Positions 5,176-24,299 of a DNA stretch of 26,795 nucleotides are shown piece by piece. Position numbers and translations under genes: made by a program. Positions within the stretch are counted from its first letter, which is position 1, and every line of letters starts with the position of its first letter. The notes below the pieces were generated by a model. It was not told the origin of the DNA and searched no databases. It saw only the letters and a program-made list of their open reading frames with translations. Source of the stretch: a virus; the IMG/VR virus record IMGVR_UViG_3300042336_000195, positions 1-26,795 of that record; one strand, given 5' to 3'.

Positions 5176-5544
5176 GCAAACTTAAGAGATAACATAGAAC
5201 AAAATTTACCGTTTATTAGTGTGATTACTTACGGCAACGATGAATATGTTGGTATAATTACCAACCAAGATCAGTACGTAACAAGTTTCTACGACTTAAA
5301 CGCAATACTATCAGCTGACGATAAAGTAACGTTTTTAGAGATAGGCGAGATATGGTGGTGGGAATCTAATCGACAATTTCCAATATCTATATTTTGCAGA
5401 GAAGAACTGCAACCATTTAGTTATGCAATTAAAACATTTAATAGCAAAGATACTCGTATAATATTAGGTCCAGTAGTTAATTTAATGAACCTAACAGTTA
5501 AACGAGTTAAACGTAAATCTGTTCAACTCGTCCGAAAACCTTAA
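5173..5544 (+). CDS. Conserved phage protein of unknown function, the only plus-strand gene
   Basis: This 123-residue protein begins MANLRDNIEQNLPFISVITY. It is mostly beta-strand-like in the first half, with a Trp cluster (EIWWWES) near the middle and a strongly basic C-terminus (VKRVKRKSVQLVRKP). That layout would suit an RNA-, DNA- or polymerase-binding small protein, but I do not recognise a named family. The ATG at 5173 is chosen over an upstream TTG at 5143 because the protein reads naturally from there; no Shine-Dalgarno sequence is visible. Its stop overlaps the stop of the convergent DnaE-like gene (shared TTAA at 5541-5544). The opposite strand holds no competing gene, so the strand flip is real. 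Confidence 0.75.
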   Translation: MANLRDNIEQNLPFISVITYGNDEYVGIITNQDQYVTSFYDLNAILSADDKVTFLEIGEIWWWESNRQFPISIFCREELQPFSYAIKTFNSKDTRIILGPVVNLMNLTVKRVKRKSVQLVRKP

Positions 5545-6098
5545 ACCTCTTCACAAATTAAATTCATCTGCACTACAATCGCCATTGCATAAGCAATTGC
5601 ATGCGATTTACGGAATGCATACCCGGCGTCAGCGTCTGAGTGTTCCCATATGTCTGTCATCACCGTAGTCCATTCTTTCCCAATCAAATAGCGTTTCGCT
5701 GGCCTTATCATCGCCAGGACTGCAGCTAATTGTTCCACGGAAGTCGGCTGCATCTGTTTCAGAATATCTATGTGCCCGTTTATATGAAATAGTAGATTTA
5801 CAAAGTCTTCTTGAAGTAATAGTTCCCATATTGGTTCAGTTCCCATTAAATGTAGTAGATGGTCGTTATCTCGAATGTCTTTATATATCATAACATTGAG
5901 AAAATCAATTTTAAAATAACCTCTGTCTTCAGCTTCTTTATAGTCAATTGTACTCACCCCAGTTACTGGATTGTGTGGTATATTGTGACAGTAGATGCCT
6001 GTATTGTGTTTTTTTTGAATACTAATAGCTGCCGTAACATGTTTTAATTTTGACAGTGCTAGATCTCTATTAGCAAAGTCAATGTCAATATCCGGCAT
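5541..6098 (-). CDS. Miniature DnaE-like protein (DNA polymerase III alpha catalytic motifs)
   Basis: This 185-residue protein reads as a condensed bacterial Pol III alpha core. It opens with PDIDIDF (residues 2-8), the motif that carries the first two catalytic aspartates in DnaE (here D5 and D7). Then come HNTGIYC (compare DnaE H-A-A/G-G-V) and EDRGYFKIDFLNV with D65, matching the 'GLVKFDFLGL' motif of the third catalytic Asp. Later segments HIDILKQMQPTS and MIRPAKRY match 'LIKRLQP...FRPG', and YAFRKSHAIAYA matches 'GFNKSHSAAYA'. PHP, most of the fingers and all C-terminal domains are missing. The full enzyme is about 1160 residues. The ATG at 6098 is chosen because GGAGG lies 10 nt upstream. 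Whether it polymerises, binds the host clamp or replisome, or acts otherwise is unknown. Confidence 0.75.
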   Translation of the reverse strand: MPDIDIDFANRDLALSKLKHVTAAISIQKKHNTGIYCHNIPHNPVTGVSTIDYKEAEDRGYFKIDFLNVMIYKDIRDNDHLLHLMGTEPIWELLLQEDFVNLLFHINGHIDILKQMQPTSVEQLAAVLAMIRPAKRYLIGKEWTTVMTDIWEHSDADAGYAFRKSHAIAYAMAIVVQMNLICEEV

Positions 6099-6156
6099 AG
6101 GTGATGAACCTCCAATGATAATCTGGTTTTGTTTCAATCGCAATATTTATGCTCAT
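6085..6156 (-). CDS. Possible 23-residue leader peptide upstream of the DnaE-like gene
   Basis: A frame of 23 codons starts at ATG 6156, overlapping the TGA of the zinc-finger gene (ATGA), with a strong AAGGAG about 9 nt upstream. Its TGA at 6087-6085 lies just inside the next gene, whose ATG is at 6098. The peptide begins MSINIAIETKPDYHW and has no recognisable domain. It may serve translational coupling, or be a chance frame downstream of a good ribosome site. Confidence 0.35.
   Translation of the reverse strand: MSINIAIETKPDYHWRFITYAGY
6144..6151 (-). promoter_or_regulatory. Late-promoter-like octamer CATAAATA
   Basis: The minus strand reads CATAAATA. Transcription from about 6138 would skip the 23-residue leader frame and give the DnaE-like gene a 40-nt leader with GGAGG. 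Activity is inferred. Confidence 0.4.
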
Positions 6157-15655: not shown

Positions 15656-17942
15656 AATTATTTCTCATTGTTTTGTGCATTTTATGTTTATCAATGCTAT
15701 CAAATTTACGTCTGCCACCAAATCCCTGTAGCTCTTTCATCAACATTGCAATGTCTTGACCGTCATCATCTTCAGGTTCTTGGTTGCCTAATCCGGCTAG
15801 TCTTAATACATCAGTCTGTTCTTGATCGTCTGAACTTGGATCTAATTTATTAACTTTTTGCATTACATATTTTACATCGTCGTCTGATGCATTGCTGTAT
15901 TCGTCATCTTCATAGTTTTTCTTAATAATAATTTTAACGCGTGTTCCGCCAACTGTAAAGTTACGGTCTTCTGCATTCCAAAATCCTATAATTGATCTTA
16001 AAATTTGATTAACACCTGAAATGTTTTCTTCTTCCGGTTCACCACCTTCTTGATCATTATCTTCTACTTCATACTCGCCAAATCCCGCTTCACTAGGTGT
16101 CATTCCACTTTCTCTAATAAGATCACGGATTGTCATACCTTCTGCAATTGGAGTATCTAAGTTAGCACCCGCAGCTTTAGCTTTAATAAACTTAGCTTTC
16201 ATTTTAGATTTTTTAGGATTAATTCCTTCTGCAACCGGTGCTGCTGGTGGTTCTTCACCCGGTGCTGCTGGAGGTACTTCACCTTCTTCACCCGGTGCTG
16301 CTGGAGGCACTTCACCTTCTGCGCCTAATTCACCTTCTGGAGGCATACCGCCACCTAAGTCTGGAGGCATACCACCTAACCCGCCACCTAACCCGCCACC
16401 TGCATCCGGCATTGGAGCACCTGCATCTGGCATCGGAGCACCTGCATCCGGCATTGGAGCACTAGGTTCAGTCGGTACCGCAGGGGTGCTGTCTGCATCA
16501 GGACCAATTTTTAATTGAATTGCTACGTCTGGATCTCGTTGCGTAATATAATTTTGAAGTATTGCACGTATATCTAAATCTGCGTCAACTGTTTTGAGAG
16601 AATCAAAAAAAGCAGGATCATTAATTAACCCTTCTAATTCTTCGGCTGCACCTTCTCCATACGCACCGTTAAGCAACGGTTGTGCTAGTAGATCATTCAA
16701 CTTTTCAATTGCAGCATGCTTAGATGTTAACGACTGACTAAACAATTCATCTTTGTCTTCATTCATAAGATGATTAATAAATGACTCAAATGCAAGCTCT
16801 GGATCAAGTTCTTCTTTCTTATGACTTTTATAGCCTTTGTTTTTCATTGAGTGTGCTAATGCCCAAGGATTATCAATTTCCTTGTGTTTTTTCATTGCTT
16901 TAACAGTACCTTCCCATCCTTTAGGTGCAGCTTCATCCATAAAGTAATCTGAAGATAATTCACAAACTGGCAACTCACTTTCGTCTACAATGTTATATAA
17001 GAACGGAAATACTGTTTTCATTTCTTCATTAAATGTGCGAACAGTTAGGCGTTCAATCCAATCGTTCATAACAGTTTCCGGTATTACTCTTTCTTCTGTT
17101 GTAGTAAATGATTCTGCAAATTGTTGATAGTAAGCCGGACGTTGTAAGCTAACAATTTCTTTTTTAACTGCATCAATGCGTTCAATTACACGCGTTGTAA
17201 CGTCGCCCATTGCTTCTGATATTTGTGATTGGCGACTAACATATCCTTTAAACTTACGTAAACTTGCTAATTCTTCGCTAAGTTTAGTAATATGTTTACC
17301 AATATCATCATACGGGATACCACCGTGTTTAATGTGTTCTGCTAATGCACGAGCACCGGGTAAGTGTTTATATGGATATTTGAATCGTTCGCCGTCTGCA
17401 TTTTCAATGTATATACATTCAATATGCATTGTACGGCCTGCAGCTAACTCTGGATTAACAGGTTGAGTATGTTTAACTATTAAACGAGCCTCGCCTAAGT
17501 CTTGGTAACTTATTCTAGAAGTACCAAACATTTTACTTTCCATCATTTGTTGTTCCTTGGGTTTTGCTTGAAACTGGTAGTCTCGTTTGTCTAAGTTGCT
17601 TTTTCCAATGTTTTGTACATCAAAGTTTAATAAGCGATGTTTAGCAAAGTTTCTAAATGATCGAATGAATTTGTATGCGTTATGGTGGGTCGTATCAGAA
17701 TCGTTGTCTACTAAATCCCCACTAACTTGCACTACAACTCCGTCGTCTTTATCTAAAGTAATAGTAATAGTTCCAAGTGGTTTGTCATCTTCAGTATACT
17801 CAAACTCAAAGAATCGTGCTTTTGGAATATCAACTTTTTTACTCAGTACTGCTGCGTTCTCGTCTCCCATCGTAATGTCTGAAAAACGTGTTTGTATTTT
17901 ACCATAAAGGTCTAAAGCAATTTTATCTAAATTATTGTCCAT
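15615..17942 (-). CDS. Large predicted virion protein with disordered Pro/Gly-rich centre
   Basis: This 775-residue protein has a conserved N-terminal half. It includes SYQDLGEARLIVKHTQPVN and then IENADGERFKYPYKHLPGARAL, which I remember from structural proteins of marine T4-like phages. APKGWEGTVKAMKKHKEID (about 345-360 of the longer reading) is a short helical motif seen in other phage virion proteins. A low-complexity region follows with PMPDAGA repeats and PPAAPGEE repeats. A basic patch (KKSKMKAKFIKAKAAG) and acidic segments come next, and the tail is basic. The ATG at 17942 is preferred because GATAAATA lies exactly 5 nt upstream. An in-frame GTG at 17957 overlaps the terminase stop (GTGA) and would add 5 residues. 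No Shine-Dalgarno sequence is visible at either. Confidence 0.75.
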   Translation of the reverse strand: MDNNLDKIALDLYGKIQTRFSDITMGDENAAVLSKKVDIPKARFFEFEYTEDDKPLGTITITLDKDDGVVVQVSGDLVDNDSDTTHHNAYKFIRSFRNFAKHRLLNFDVQNIGKSNLDKRDYQFQAKPKEQQMMESKMFGTSRISYQDLGEARLIVKHTQPVNPELAAGRTMHIECIYIENADGERFKYPYKHLPGARALAEHIKHGGIPYDDIGKHITKLSEELASLRKFKGYVSRQSQISEAMGDVTTRVIERIDAVKKEIVSLQRPAYYQQFAESFTTTEERVIPETVMNDWIERLTVRTFNEEMKTVFPFLYNIVDESELPVCELSSDYFMDEAAPKGWEGTVKAMKKHKEIDNPWALAHSMKNKGYKSHKKEELDPELAFESFINHLMNEDKDELFSQSLTSKHAAIEKLNDLLAQPLLNGAYGEGAAEELEGLINDPAFFDSLKTVDADLDIRAILQNYITQRDPDVAIQLKIGPDADSTPAVPTEPSAPMPDAGAPMPDAGAPMPDAGGGLGGGLGGMPPDLGGGMPPEGELGAEGEVPPAAPGEEGEVPPAAPGEEPPAAPVAEGINPKKSKMKAKFIKAKAAGANLDTPIAEGMTIRDLIRESGMTPSEAGFGEYEVEDNDQEGGEPEEENISGVNQILRSIIGFWNAEDRNFTVGGTRVKIIIKKNYEDDEYSNASDDDVKYVMQKVNKLDPSSDDQEQTDVLRLAGLGNQEPEDDDGQDIAMLMKELQGFGGRRKFDSIDKHKMHKTMRNNYEKNFRNRSSKFR
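16399..16461 (-). repeat. 21-bp in-frame tandem repeat (3 copies)
   Basis: Units at 16399, 16420 and 16441 encode PMPDAGA three times. Copies 1 and 3 are identical and copy 2 differs by two silent changes. They lie in the disordered centre of the large virion protein. Confidence 0.85.
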
Positions 17943-17947
17943 GTTTA

Positions 17948-17955
17948 TATTTATC
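17948..17955 (-). promoter_or_regulatory. GATAAATA exactly 5 nt before the ATG of the large virion gene
   Basis: The minus strand reads GATAAATA, then TAAAC, then ATG. If it works like a T4 late -10 element, the transcript would start on the start codon. It overlaps the stop of the downstream terminase fragment. Confidence 0.45.
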
Positions 17956-19063
17956 ACATATTAGAGGAAACAAATATTGGTAGAGGTGCTTCCCAGTCCT
18001 CAATTCGATCTTCAATCCGCATTTTTTCAAATACTAAAGGATCCCATTCTGCTAGTATATCAATCATTCTTACTATTAATAATAATGCTGCTACTAAATC
18101 GTCGTGTTGTCCCGGTTTACCTTTAAAACTAATTCCATGTGCAATGAAAGATTTTAATTCGGTTATTAACGGTTTGCTATTAATTACCATCTTATCTTCT
18201 TCAACAAAAAATTTTAATTTTGAACATGCAGCAATTTTATTATTAAAGGTTGTATTAAATCCTTTGCGGAATTTTCGAACATGCCCTTTTCTGCCCGGCT
18301 CGCTCACAAATAATCCCGGAAATGTTTCTTCTCCTAAGTTGTCAATTACTACTAATGCGCTTTCGCCTACTGTATTATTTTCTACCGACCAATATATTGA
18401 ATTATATTGATCAGCACCAATTTCGTCTTGTACATATAATAATATATCTCTAAATAACTTTACCTGTCCTTGTATAGGAGTAATGTTATGATGCCATTCT
18501 GCAACTTGCACCATTGATGGTAATTCAAAAACAGTAATAGCCGAATAGTCGCCTCCTGTACCTAAACTAGGATCTAATGCAATTAAATATAAATTACCTG
18601 CAGTTGGTGTTTTATACCATCGCACTTGCCCCATTTTCATCATAGGTTCTTTACCATACAGCTCAACTAACTTCAAACTGTTTATAAGAGTTTCGTCGTA
18701 TACTAAAAATTCGCAATTTTTGATTAGAACGTTATTTGCATAATACCTGTGATTCTGTTCAACATTAAACAGATCGTATACTGGTTCTTCATCTAACAGC
18801 CACTTAACAGACACGACATTATCAAGTTTGCCATTAACTAAAATTTTTTGTTTAGGCAATAATAATCTACCTTCTATCGGTTTAAACCCATTAAGAAAAT
18901 ATTTATGATCAGGAGTGCTTTTAAGTGAATGACGTTGTGTAGTTACATGAAGTATCTTTTTAACACCTTTAACTAAGATTCCGTCAAACTTGCTCCAGCC
19001 GGTGTCAGTTAGCACTGTTAATCCTAACTTATTTTTTATTAATTCTTCCGCGTGTAAATCCAT
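17954..19063 (-). CDS. gp17: Terminase large subunit, C-terminal fragment: C-intein plus nuclease domain
   Basis: This 369-residue product has a 116-residue C-intein followed by 253 residues of gp17 nuclease. The nuclease begins at CEFLVYDETL. LIALDPSLGTGGDYS supplies the first catalytic Asp, SVENNTVGESAL the Glu and GQHDDLVAALL the final Asp of the RNase H-like headful nuclease. After trans-splicing to the upstream fragment it would cut concatemeric DNA and join the ATPase motor. The ATG at 19063 is chosen over the TTG just before it; AAGGAA lies about 10 nt upstream, inside the 3' end of the homing endonuclease gene, which it overlaps by 35 nt. The stop overlaps a GTG start of the next gene. 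The fragment cannot act alone in packaging, because the ATPase is on the other piece. Confidence 0.93.
   Translation of the reverse strand: MDLHAEELIKNKLGLTVLTDTGWSKFDGILVKGVKKILHVTTQRHSLKSTPDHKYFLNGFKPIEGRLLLPKQKILVNGKLDNVVSVKWLLDEEPVYDLFNVEQNHRYYANNVLIKNCEFLVYDETLINSLKLVELYGKEPMMKMGQVRWYKTPTAGNLYLIALDPSLGTGGDYSAITVFELPSMVQVAEWHHNITPIQGQVKLFRDILLYVQDEIGADQYNSIYWSVENNTVGESALVVIDNLGEETFPGLFVSEPGRKGHVRKFRKGFNTTFNNKIAACSKLKFFVEEDKMVINSKPLITELKSFIAHGISFKGKPGQHDDLVAALLLIVRMIDILAEWDPLVFEKMRIEDRIEDWEAPLPIFVSSNM
18716..19063 (-). other. C-intein fragment of an atypically split intein (blocks B, F, G)
   Basis: Residues 1-116 of the downstream terminase piece. LKSTPDHKYF carries the block B TxxH (T50, H53). 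VYDLFNVEQNHRYYANNVL is block F, and LIKN|C is block G, with terminal Asn and +1 Cys. The penultimate residue is Lys rather than the usual His. The long C-part contains nearly everything but block A, as in the AceL-TerL type of natural split intein (named from memory). Confidence 0.9.
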
Positions 19064-19808
19064 CAAGTTCTGTTCCTTCTTTAAATTGTTTGTTAATTAC
19101 TCCATTATTATACCAACACATGCCTCTCTTTGATATTTGTAATCTAGGAAGTCTTCCCTTAACAAATCCGTCAGGGCATATATCTTTATAGGTCTCAATA
19201 ACTCCATTATTAAACCATTGTTTGTCTTTTGCTGATCCAGGTTTTCCTTTTTTGGAGTCACTTATTTTTTTTGCTCTTATAGGACATTTGTTAAACTCAT
19301 AATAACCTGGTTGGCTTCTAACTAACAGTTGAGTTTCTCTTTCAGATTCAGACCATTTAGTACCTAATGTACGTCCACCAATTCCTGGACGAGCGATACC
19401 TTTATTATATGGAATAGTTCCTTTTCTCTGAATACTCATTAATTGTTTGGTTTCTTCAGTATGTTTAAATCCAGTACACCCATCTCCGCCTAGTGTTTTA
19501 TTTGTTAACGGGCCGGCATGATCAATTAATCGGCCGTACTGGTTAATCAGATCAGTTTCAAGAGCCTTTGCTGCAGCATCTGTTAACTCAGTTTGATACA
19601 TTTCTATAACCGGAGTTAGATTTTGCGCGACTAATCTAGAAATTACCGCAACTTTTAAATGATTACACGTAGTTTCTGCAGTTTCTGATAAATGATCTTT
19701 ATATCGCCTACCGTGGCCCTTCCCAATATAAAACGGTTGATTTGCTAAAATACTCATATAACTTACTGTGATGTTAATTGGGGTTTTATAAATATATACA
19801 TAATACAT
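19029..19808 (-). CDS. GIY-YIG homing endonuclease inside the split terminase
   Basis: This 259-residue protein starts MYYVYIYKTP, the 'GIY' half of the motif. ANQPFYIGKGHGRRYKDHL gives the 'YIG' half with the catalytic Arg region, and LETDLINQYG supplies the Glu. GFKHTEETKQLMSIQRKG is a NUMOD3-type DNA-binding motif. The tail holds two copies of a W(F/Y)NNGV...GF.(K/R)GR module (KQWFNNGVIETYKD and MCWYNNGVINKQFKE), probably DNA contacts. An earlier in-frame ATG at 19823 would add five residues. 19808 is preferred because the GIY domain begins there and GATAAATA lies 5 nt before it. The 3' end overlaps the C-intein start by 35 nt. It is free-standing, not fused to the intein. Confidence 0.9.
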   Translation of the reverse strand: MYYVYIYKTPINITVSYMSILANQPFYIGKGHGRRYKDHLSETAETTCNHLKVAVISRLVAQNLTPVIEMYQTELTDAAAKALETDLINQYGRLIDHAGPLTNKTLGGDGCTGFKHTEETKQLMSIQRKGTIPYNKGIARPGIGGRTLGTKWSESERETQLLVRSQPGYYEFNKCPIRAKKISDSKKGKPGSAKDKQWFNNGVIETYKDICPDGFVKGRLPRLQISKRGMCWYNNGVINKQFKEGTELDGFTRGRINKK

Positions 19809-19813
19809 GCTAG

Positions 19814-19821
19814 TATTTATC
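19814..19821 (-). promoter_or_regulatory. GATAAATA exactly 5 nt before the homing endonuclease ATG
   Basis: The minus strand reads GATAAATA, CTAGC, ATG. No Shine-Dalgarno sequence is present. In T4 the intron homing endonuclease I-TevI is also made from a late promoter (established knowledge), so late control here would be in keeping; it is not proven. Confidence 0.45.
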
Positions 19822-19834
19822 ATTTCGTCATATA

Positions 19835-20761
19835 CTATGAACTTAATAATCGCATAATATCGCCCATTGTTAGTTTTTCAATTTTTCCAGATGGCCATTT
19901 AACAGTTACAACTGAATCATGCACAATACAACCGTATTCACGTCTAAATTTTTCCTCACCTATACGACCAAGCTCTTCTTGTTTCCATGCATCGTCACGA
20001 TCTGGATGATCCCACCAATCTGATCTAAATCCAGAAAAACCGTTAATGCCAACTTTGTCTGCTTTCTCATTGCCAAACTCGTCAAAAAACTGTTGACTTT
20101 CTTTCCATATAGTAGCAAATTGATCTTCGTCACTATTTGGTGTAGATGTAATAATACAACGTCCACCAGTTGCTAGTGTGGGTGATATAGAAGTCCAAAA
20201 TTCTTCAGCAATGTTAGGTTGTAAGAACGCAAACTCATCGCAATACAATAACGAAATAGACATACCTCGTCCTGTAGTACCAGTAGTAGTTTGACTTACA
20301 ATACGAGAACCGTTATCAAACTCCATAGACCCTTTATTATAACTTACTACCCCTGCACGTAAGAAGTCCGGACATAGTTCGTATCCGTATCGTATACGTT
20401 GCATAATCTCTTGAGCACCAGTATATTTGTGCGCTGCAATTAGAATAGTTTGATCTGGATGAAACATTGCAAACCATAACAAGTACGCAGATGCACAGGT
20501 TGTTTTACCACTTTGGCGAGGTAACATATTAATATTAAACCGATGTGCATGATAACAATTTAACAAGTTAACTTGATAATCAAATGGTTCAAATAATAAT
20601 TTACCTTTTACTGAATGCTGAATGTGAAAGAAGTGTCTTGAGAAATAAAGATACCCAACTGCTGGATCAGAGCACATTTGTAAATCAATAATCTGTTGTT
20701 CTTCAAATCGTTCAGTTTTATGTGCTTTTTTTGTTAAAACACCGTCAAGACTTTTACCCAT
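19835..20761 (-). CDS. gp17: Terminase large subunit, N-terminal fragment: ATPase domain plus N-intein
   Basis: This 308-residue product has 277 residues of gp17 ATPase followed by a 31-residue N-intein. Walker A is MLPRQSGKTT at about 79-88. Walker B is LLYCDEF at 171-177 with the catalytic Glu, and the coupling motif is TSTPNS at 205-210. The extein ends EEKFRREYG. The next residues, CIVHDSVVTV, are intein block A, and the fragment stops after MRLLSS. Joined to the downstream piece it gives about 530 residues, in the range of T4-like gp17 (610 in T4). AAAAAGGA precedes the ATG. A strong terminator lies just upstream, so the gene probably has its own promoter. Confidence 0.95.
   Translation of the reverse strand: MGKSLDGVLTKKAHKTERFEEQQIIDLQMCSDPAVGYLYFSRHFFHIQHSVKGKLLFEPFDYQVNLLNCYHAHRFNINMLPRQSGKTTCASAYLLWFAMFHPDQTILIAAHKYTGAQEIMQRIRYGYELCPDFLRAGVVSYNKGSMEFDNGSRIVSQTTTGTTGRGMSISLLYCDEFAFLQPNIAEEFWTSISPTLATGGRCIITSTPNSDEDQFATIWKESQQFFDEFGNEKADKVGINGFSGFRSDWWDHPDRDDAWKQEELGRIGEEKFRREYGCIVHDSVVTVKWPSGKIEKLTMGDIMRLLSS
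19838..19930 (-). other. N-intein fragment, 31 residues (block A only)
   Basis: It begins with Cys1 in CIVHDSVVTV and ends at a TAG after LLSS. It lacks block B, whose TxxH is on the other fragment. Common split inteins such as DnaE have about 100 residues in the N-part, so this break between blocks A and B is atypical. Position 4 is His where many inteins have Gly. Confidence 0.88.
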
Positions 20762-20789
20762 AATAATCCTTTTTGTATTATGTATTTAC

Positions 20790-20817
20790 AAAAAAAAGCG
20801 GACAATATGTCCGCTTT
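20790..20817 (-). terminator. Rho-independent terminator upstream of terminase
   Basis: On the minus strand AAAGCGGAC and GTCCGCTTT form a 9-bp stem with a 5-nt loop, followed by a run of U. It ends the upstream virion-gene transcript before terminase begins. Confidence 0.85.
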
Positions 20818-24291: not shown

Positions 24292-24299
24292 TATTTATC
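24292..24299 (-). promoter_or_regulatory. GATAAATA exactly 5 nt before the tube-like gene
   Basis: The minus strand reads GATAAATA, TATGT, ATG. It lies just after the terminator that ends the gp18-gp19 transcript, so a promoter is needed here. Confidence 0.5.

Follow-up and report, generated by a model that had tools for sequence, protein, structure and literature searches.

How is the large terminase of a phage made when its gene is broken in two, and why does an endonuclease gene lie in the break? The question is raised by IMG/VR virus record IMGVR_UViG_3300042336_000195, the whole of which (26,795 bases) was analysed here and is called the window below. Genes in the window for UvsX, UvsY, a DnaB-like helicase, a single-strand DNA-binding protein, tail sheath and tail tube are those of a T4-like myovirus. 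Its large terminase is encoded by two minus-strand genes, the N piece and the C piece, with an endonuclease open reading frame (ORF) between them. The locus is very probably a composite mobile split-intein element, whose intein parts would join the two pieces into one terminase by trans-splicing, whose endonuclease would drive homing and which carries a candidate operator before the endonuclease gene.

Two terminase genes that carry parts of an intein

The N piece (19835–20761) consists of an N-extein followed by an N-intein, and the C piece (17954–19063) of a C-intein followed by a C-extein. One intact PHROG terminase profile is covered by the N piece over positions 435–629 and by the C piece over positions 626–862. 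The coordinates and the Pfam and PHROG matches thus agree with the first-pass annotation of the locus, which had placed the terminase ATPase with a 31-residue N-intein in one gene and the C-intein with the nuclease in the other. The separate endonuclease ORF (19029–19823, minus strand) likewise bears out the free-standing endonuclease that it had described, and ATG 19808 is a likelier start than the ORF limit at 19823. This ORF overlaps the start of the C piece by 35–38 nt, so that the gap is not a clean spacer. The C piece starts at ATG 19063, with a TTG one codon earlier. The features are as follows.

19931–20761, minus strand: N-extein, terminase residues 1–277 (ATPase part), ending in REYG; Pfam Terminase_6N (E 2.5e-18) and PHROG 36964; 100% identical in contigs L003 and L005
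19838–19930, minus strand: N-intein, 31 residues from Cys1, stop codon at 19835–19837; 30–34 residues in other unfused members of the same site
19824–19841, minus strand: extein echo (a copy of the beginning of the C-extein, see below), encodes FIVYDE in a shifted frame and shares bases with the stop codon of the N-intein; 14 of 15 core bases agree with C-extein bases 10–25
19814–19821, minus strand: gene-start motif GATAAATA, 13 nt before ATG 19808
19029–19808, minus strand: free-standing homing endonuclease with a putative GIY-YIG head and a NUMOD3 tail, from Pfam, PHROG 314 and alignment
19074–19078, minus strand: AAGGA, 10 nt upstream of ATG 19063 and perhaps the ribosome-binding site of the C piece, from reading of the sequence
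18716–19063, minus strand: C-intein, 116 residues, ending in Lys-Asn before Cys+1
17957–18715, minus strand: C-extein, 253 residues (nuclease part), starting CEFLVYDE, stop codon at 17954–17956; PHROG 36964 (E 1.3e-51), T4 gp17 nuclease 3c6a (E 8e-14), Pfam Terminase_6C below cut-off

The two parts together have the features of a class 1 intein: Cys1, TPDH as the TxxH of block B, VYDLFNVEQNHRYYANN and KN followed by Cys+1. When 30 inteins of the window site were aligned without their N-intein rows, Thr and His of block B, VYD of block F and the C-terminal Asn were invariant. A contiguous relative (L168) is predicted with a mean pLDDT of 95, and the solved structure that best matches its model, in Foldseek and VIA-align, is the VidaL intein (E 1.7e-9; Z 21.1, 1.6 Å over 131 residues). 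The model thus points to an intein (Hint) fold for this contiguous relative. According to the available text of PMC13014065, VidaL is itself atypically split. Judged by its conserved residues, the window element looks like a working intein. The reading as a split intein that is broken between blocks A and B holds in the window and in its relatives.

A clean insertion with signs of recent spread

The insert between the splice junctions is 1,215 bp long and sits exactly at REYG|CEFL. Both flanks are present in 134 loci; the gap is 0 in 113 of them, while 19 loci on eight contigs (L003, L005, L006, L007, L008, L009, L019 and L059; re-fetched copies are included in the 19) hold the same 1,215-nt insert; of the remaining two, L001 is the window reversed and L145 has two inserts. 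In the nearest empty alleles (L014, L015, L016 and L018) the junction reads through in frame. Eight further contigs (L004, L010-L013, L060, L061 and L065) begin or end within the insert.

L003 and L005 are 100% identical to the window throughout. In six other loci (L006, L007, L008, L009, L019 and L062) the insert is 99.2–99.8% identical to that of the window, whereas the terminase is 88.4–93.9% identical upstream and 86.6–93.1% downstream (compared over just 97 nt in L062 and 250 nt in L019), and the shift falls at the insert borders. The identity figures suggest that these six represent about three independent allele types. In L007, L019 and L062 about 600 nt upstream of the insert are also near 100% identical, as co-conversion would give. 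An insert far more alike than its flanks is the pattern expected from recent homing, and these patterns suggest that the element moved recently. The ratios dN/dS (NG86, against L145) are 0.010 for the N-intein, 0.046 for the C-intein and 0.097 for the endonuclease, which is consistent with purifying selection on both intein parts and on the endonuclease. Longer records of the same allele, which are possibly incomplete, showed no second copy of the N piece and none of the terminase part of the C piece. The L008 record (372,016 bases) contains, elsewhere, two further relatives of the window endonuclease with 38% and 41% identity over about 90–100 residues.

Breaks at three terminase sites

Scans with inteins of the window site and of two further terminase sites, Walker B (SLLY|CDEF) and Walker A (RQSGK|T), were sorted to non-redundant variants; L265 was dropped from the table. 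The resulting numbers are lower bounds and no census, and two of the match lists comprise the best 80. The window site has at least 33 split and at least two contiguous variants, Walker B at least 28 and three (neighbouring sites removed), and Walker A at least nine and nine. A break between blocks A and B is therefore common in this phage group, and not rare as had been supposed at first. Two or more splits are present in at least ten contigs, mostly fragments and metagenomic. They combine Walker B with the window site (L145, L166, L170, L194, L282 and L295) or Walker A with Walker B (L258, L261 and L268), and all three splits are found in L187, whose terminase would take three splicing reactions to assemble from four proteins.

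Forms with a contiguous or a split intein, and with or without an endonuclease, exist side by side. L180, which is split and has an endonuclease, and L184, which is one open frame without it, have the same N-intein DNA. At the window site little or nothing is left in the gap of L187, L194, L203, L282 and L292; in L203 and L292 the tail of the lost endonuclease is still readable, after the N-intein or fused to it. Walker B gaps are shortened in L163 and L194, with an endonuclease fragment readable in L194. Splits without an endonuclease still keep the intein. The variants of one gene would thus seem to record a life cycle of the element, in which it is contiguous or split and the endonuclease is gained, swapped, decayed and lost.

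In the contiguous Walker B inteins of L184 and L174 the N-intein region is followed directly by a short, perfect inverted repeat, at the position of the endonuclease in split relatives; it is perhaps a trace of fold-back repair at the loss of the endonuclease gene. Many Walker B inteins (for example L145, near 4581) end in His-Gln rather than His-Asn before Cys+1 (SHQ|C). Contiguous Walker A inteins with inserts of about 0.8–1.0 kb have Ala, not Cys, after GK (L163, L169, L177, L183, L193, L194, L204 and L039). Class 3 inteins start likewise, with Ala in place of Cys. In the Walker B gap, L181 has an unrelated 125-residue ORF and L204 and L208 have 2–4 kb of other ORFs, so that the break can host other cargo.

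Endonuclease heads and tails

The window endonuclease matches Pfam NUMOD3 above the cut-off and the homing endonucleases of PHROG 314 (E 6.3e-10). Its naming as a GIY-YIG enzyme is likely right for the window, from the motif and a Pfam match under the cut-off, but does not extend to most relatives at the same place, which carry an HNH head on the same tail. This NUMOD3 tail is common to 26 window-site endonucleases, and by motif the head is GIY-YIG in four and HNH in 22; Pfam, run on 25 of the 26, finds HNH in 20, NUMOD3 in 20 and GIY-YIG in three. The front part is shared by the usual HNH type of Walker B and the Walker B forms that have a different nuclease end (L187 and L201). Nuclease domains thus appear to have been swapped over a conserved tail. 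Pairwise distances in 25 members correlate with r = 0.69 between endonuclease tail and C-intein, 0.59 between C-intein and terminase and 0.56 between tail and terminase, a modest difference.

Unlinked terminase pieces in cultured phages

Cultured phages contain terminase pieces that lie about 26–170 kb apart and end or start in intein parts. In Salicola phage SCTP-2 the terminase genes are gp534 (429 kb, minus strand), gp267 (256 kb, plus strand) and gp224 (216–218 kb, minus strand). A 43-residue N-intein forms the end of gp534, and gp224 contains, at another site, one more intein, which is contiguous; the terminal intein part of gp267 is longer than usual, which lowers the certainty of its pairing with gp224. 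The split in Campylobacter phage PC5 is at a neighbouring site, and the N piece PC5_00142 (99 kb, plus strand) and the C piece PC5_00114 (72–74 kb, minus strand) are about 26 kb apart. The Walker A pieces of Agrobacterium phage Atu_ph07 are adjacent, without an endonuclease gene. For pieces on different strands and far apart, protein splicing is the simplest route to one protein, and SCTP-2 and similar cultured phages make the dependence on trans-splicing testable.

Positions 214500–221500 of the SCTP-2 record (L241) also show gp225, a seeming relative of the Walker B HNH endonuclease, adjoining the C piece gp224. Some 38 kb separate them from the N-intein partner gp267, which is on the opposite strand, as if a rearrangement had broken the locus inside the split.

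An extein echo before the endonuclease gene

The extein echo lies at the end of the N-intein, before the endonuclease start (TAGTATATGACGAAA versus TAGTATACGACGAAA in the window); in L286 the aligned stretch is 38 nt. In an alignment test, from which L249, L307, L327 and L330 were dropped because no C-extein start was found, P 0.01 was reached by 6 of 27 gaps at the window site and by 9 of 24 at Walker B. Walker A gaps have no echo (0 of 7 at P 0.05), and the window-site echo of L145 matches its own C-extein no better than chance (P 0.49). As a strict encoded peptide motif, counted without the neighbouring sites (L247, L320, L323, L326, L327 and L330), the echo is present in 16 of the 28 window-site gaps longer than 200 nt and in 17 of the 25 Walker B gaps. 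Among splits without an endonuclease the corresponding counts are 1/5 (L203, which keeps the endonuclease tail) and 0/3, and among contiguous inteins 0/2 and 0/3; backgrounds of 16,151 and 22,507 residues contain no match. A looser motif is found with 23 of the 26 NUMOD3-tail endonucleases and with neither of the two other endonucleases of the site, for an expectation of 0.009 per region and two background matches in 16,151 residues. Both motifs were picked after examples had been seen, and the value of the counts therefore rests on the background counts. The members are related, so that they are not independent events, although the window site and Walker B are independent of each other. The fit of the echo to its own extein is slightly better than to others at the window site (P 0.03, kinship ignored) and no better than to those of relatives at Walker B (P 0.66).

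The echo runs into the gene-start motif. In the window, GATAAATA also stands 13 nt before two other ATGs, 24286 and 17942 (the three motifs are at minus-strand positions 24299, 19821 and 17955), and six other coding-strand copies of NATAAATA have no such placing. The form [GT]ATAAATA is found group-wide 12–13 nt before many ATGs: for 662 candidate ATGs in 33 loci it peaks at −13 (40) and −12 (17). The coding strand of the same 33 loci has 144 copies of ATAAATA and the opposite strand 17; 88 copies stand within 60 nt upstream of 385 genes, for 15.6 in shuffles. [TG]ATAAATA is not enriched over the whole window (four seen, 5.2 expected), so that it matters by position only. The late promoter of T4 is TATAAATA. 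The gene-start motif resembles it and may have a promoter role; if [GT]ATAAATA is a late promoter, the messages would be almost leaderless.

A similar layout is described, in the accessible part of PMC2988022, for the I-TevI operator of the T4 td intron, where a sequence like the homing site directly precedes the endonuclease ORF at a late promoter. There the element is a group I intron for which binding and repression were measured, whereas the echo belongs to an intein, is known from sequence and represents the C-extein side only. Since the layouts agree, we propose that the echo is an operator derived from the C-extein half of the homing site. Its position and similarity suggest that it would serve the endonuclease to limit its own late expression. 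This would provide a directly testable account of endonuclease restraint and of why intein genes break here.

Mechanism and alternative explanations

The locus could work as follows. A T4-like phage would carry a mobile composite element in its large-terminase gene, made of an atypically split intein (31 + 116 residues) and an endonuclease gene that occupies the break. Each of the two pieces would be translated on its own, and the intein parts would meet and fold into one intein domain that excises itself and joins the exteins into a 530-residue terminase. Assembly of the terminase probably depends on protein splicing, and the phage would need trans-splicing to package its DNA. The endonuclease would cut terminase genes that lack the intein, at the insertion site or close to it, and repair would copy the whole 1,215-bp unit, by which the element would spread. 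The echo, as an operator, would hold back late expression of the endonuclease.

Several observations weigh against parts of this mechanism. Lys precedes the C-terminal Asn of the window intein, and not His (usual in inteins, not universal); the relatives listed have Lys or Ser. The LEM-3_GIY-YIG Pfam match of the window endonuclease reaches 23.3 bits, under the curated cut-off of 27, although the GIY-YIG motif is present; its structure model is weak (pLDDT 64), and no PDB structure was matched at E 0.001 or better in a fold search with that model. When the whole insert of the window was searched freely for an extein copy, the score of 25 did not reach significance (17 of 200 shuffles scored as high), so that the window echo rests on the junction region and on relatives. 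The window break also separates the ATPase domain from the nuclease domain, and these might act as two subunits without being joined. The gene could then function in pieces without splicing, its intein parts being remnants, and a ribonucleotide reductase broken by the endonuclease gene mobE reportedly works as separate subunits. A reductase in pieces that retains its function also appears among the references in the available portion of PMC3322345. We consider this unlikely for the terminase, given the purifying selection on both intein parts, the key residues kept in 30 members, the intein kept even where the endonuclease is lost (L187, L194, L203 and L282) and the Walker A and Walker B breaks of relatives, which cut through the ATPase core, whose halves could hardly work unjoined. 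That an intron, a frameshift or a pseudogene accounts for the arrangement is very improbable: intein blocks are in frame on both sides and under purifying selection, no Rfam family matches 17900–20800 at E 1 or better, and in two cultured phages the pieces are far apart on opposite strands. Precedents for such a reading are an intron in which the authors placed the terminase-adjacent endonuclease of Campylobacter phage IBB_35 (accessible text of PMC3322345) and the ICP1 terminase, joined by RNA splicing (accessible text of PMC10448857). Given the selection, the in-frame blocks and the lack of an Rfam match, the pseudogene and intron readings were set aside. An assembly chimera of two genomes, which the first-pass annotation had allowed for, is hardly credible. 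The material is metagenomic throughout, and the insert contains the ends of eight contigs, but eight other contigs with both flanks have identical junctions, which together with the 113 gap-free loci rules out an artefact, and the same layout recurs in many divergent relatives.

The role of the echo is less certain than that of the intein. It is a real possibility, somewhat below an even chance, that the echo is a functionless scar, a scrap of C-extein copied when the endonuclease gene arrived. A scar would explain that the start of the Walker B echo coincides, or nearly so, with that of the C-extein (base 0 in L172 and L178), that this echo shows no preference for its own extein over the exteins of relatives, and that L173, L192 and L201 have it in frame with the N-intein. 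A scar accounts less well for an echo that is found at two sites whose endonucleases belong to different families, in most cases adjoins the gene-start motif, is kept with nearly all endonucleases of the same tail and with neither of the others at the site, and at the window site fits its own extein slightly better. We tentatively put forward, at close to an even chance, a broader proposal: endonucleases in split-intein gaps regulate themselves like I-TevI, behind an operator from the C-extein half placed at a late gene-start motif; at the window site this operator carries the stop codon of the N-intein. Installation of this unit, and not random breakage, would then fracture the gene, with terminase as a main host, up to three breaks and four proteins per motor.

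Relation to known split inteins

The composite split-intein element of the window is of a known kind, since both split inteins of the large terminase (TerL) and fractured genes have been published. In the accessible text of PMC11766414 and PMC13014065, atypical TerL split inteins have N-inteins of 25 (AceL), 37 (GOS) and 30 (Cat) residues and are split after the first helix. The likeness to AceL-TerL noted at the outset holds, since the window has the same host protein and an N-intein of 31 residues, within the published 25–37. GOS-TerL starts with Ser and the window intein with Cys; splicing was measured for AceL-, GOS- and Cat-TerL, whereas the window is known from sequence. The parts of both papers available to us make no mention of multiple breaks or of an echo for these three. 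The CatC structure (6dsl) is matched weakly by the window C-intein (E 0.043) and better by a Walker B C-intein (E 6e-4), and C-E follows the intein in both CatC and the window. That AceL-TerL and the window element share one insertion site in the terminase is likely, in view of the C-E after the CatC C-intein.

The window also has the layout of a fractured gene, with two split-intein genes and a free-standing endonuclease gene between them. As described in the available part of PMC7891396, AceL NrdHF is likewise divided into two genes with an intervening GIY-YIG gene, but its intein is of class 3 and split at the usual place (98 + 48 residues), unlike that of the window. PolB of Pseudomonas phage MIJ3 resembles the window in having a split intein and a separate HNH gene (orf154) in an essential gene of a large phage; the gene is a different one, and block B lies in the N part, which is the usual type of split (PMC6892783, available text). 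Among cultured phages, Salmonella phage Maynard has a terminase intein that, unlike the window element, interrupts one coding sequence (PMC3868846, in the part accessible), and Campylobacter phage IBB_35 has a terminase intein and an adjacent endonuclease gene, read by its authors as an intein plus an intron (PMC3322345, same limit).

The scale and layout, with multiple breaks, unlinked pieces, coexisting forms and swapped nuclease domains, appear to be new. Multiple terminase breaks, nuclease swaps over a constant tail and an echo operator in an intein were not found in the literature searched, which covers few subscription journals. If the trans-splicing reading is true, one, two or three protein trans-splicing events are needed to make an essential viral motor. 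Dozens of candidate natural split inteins with N parts of about 30–40 residues, a class sought for protein labelling, also come from this family.

A short polymerase-like ORF

Elsewhere in the window, a minus-strand ORF at 5541–6143 (200 residues, TTG start) matches PHROG 11778, 'DNA polymerase', over nearly the whole profile. Its motifs PDIDIDF and KSHAIAYA recall bacterial DNA polymerase III alpha, for which it is far too short.

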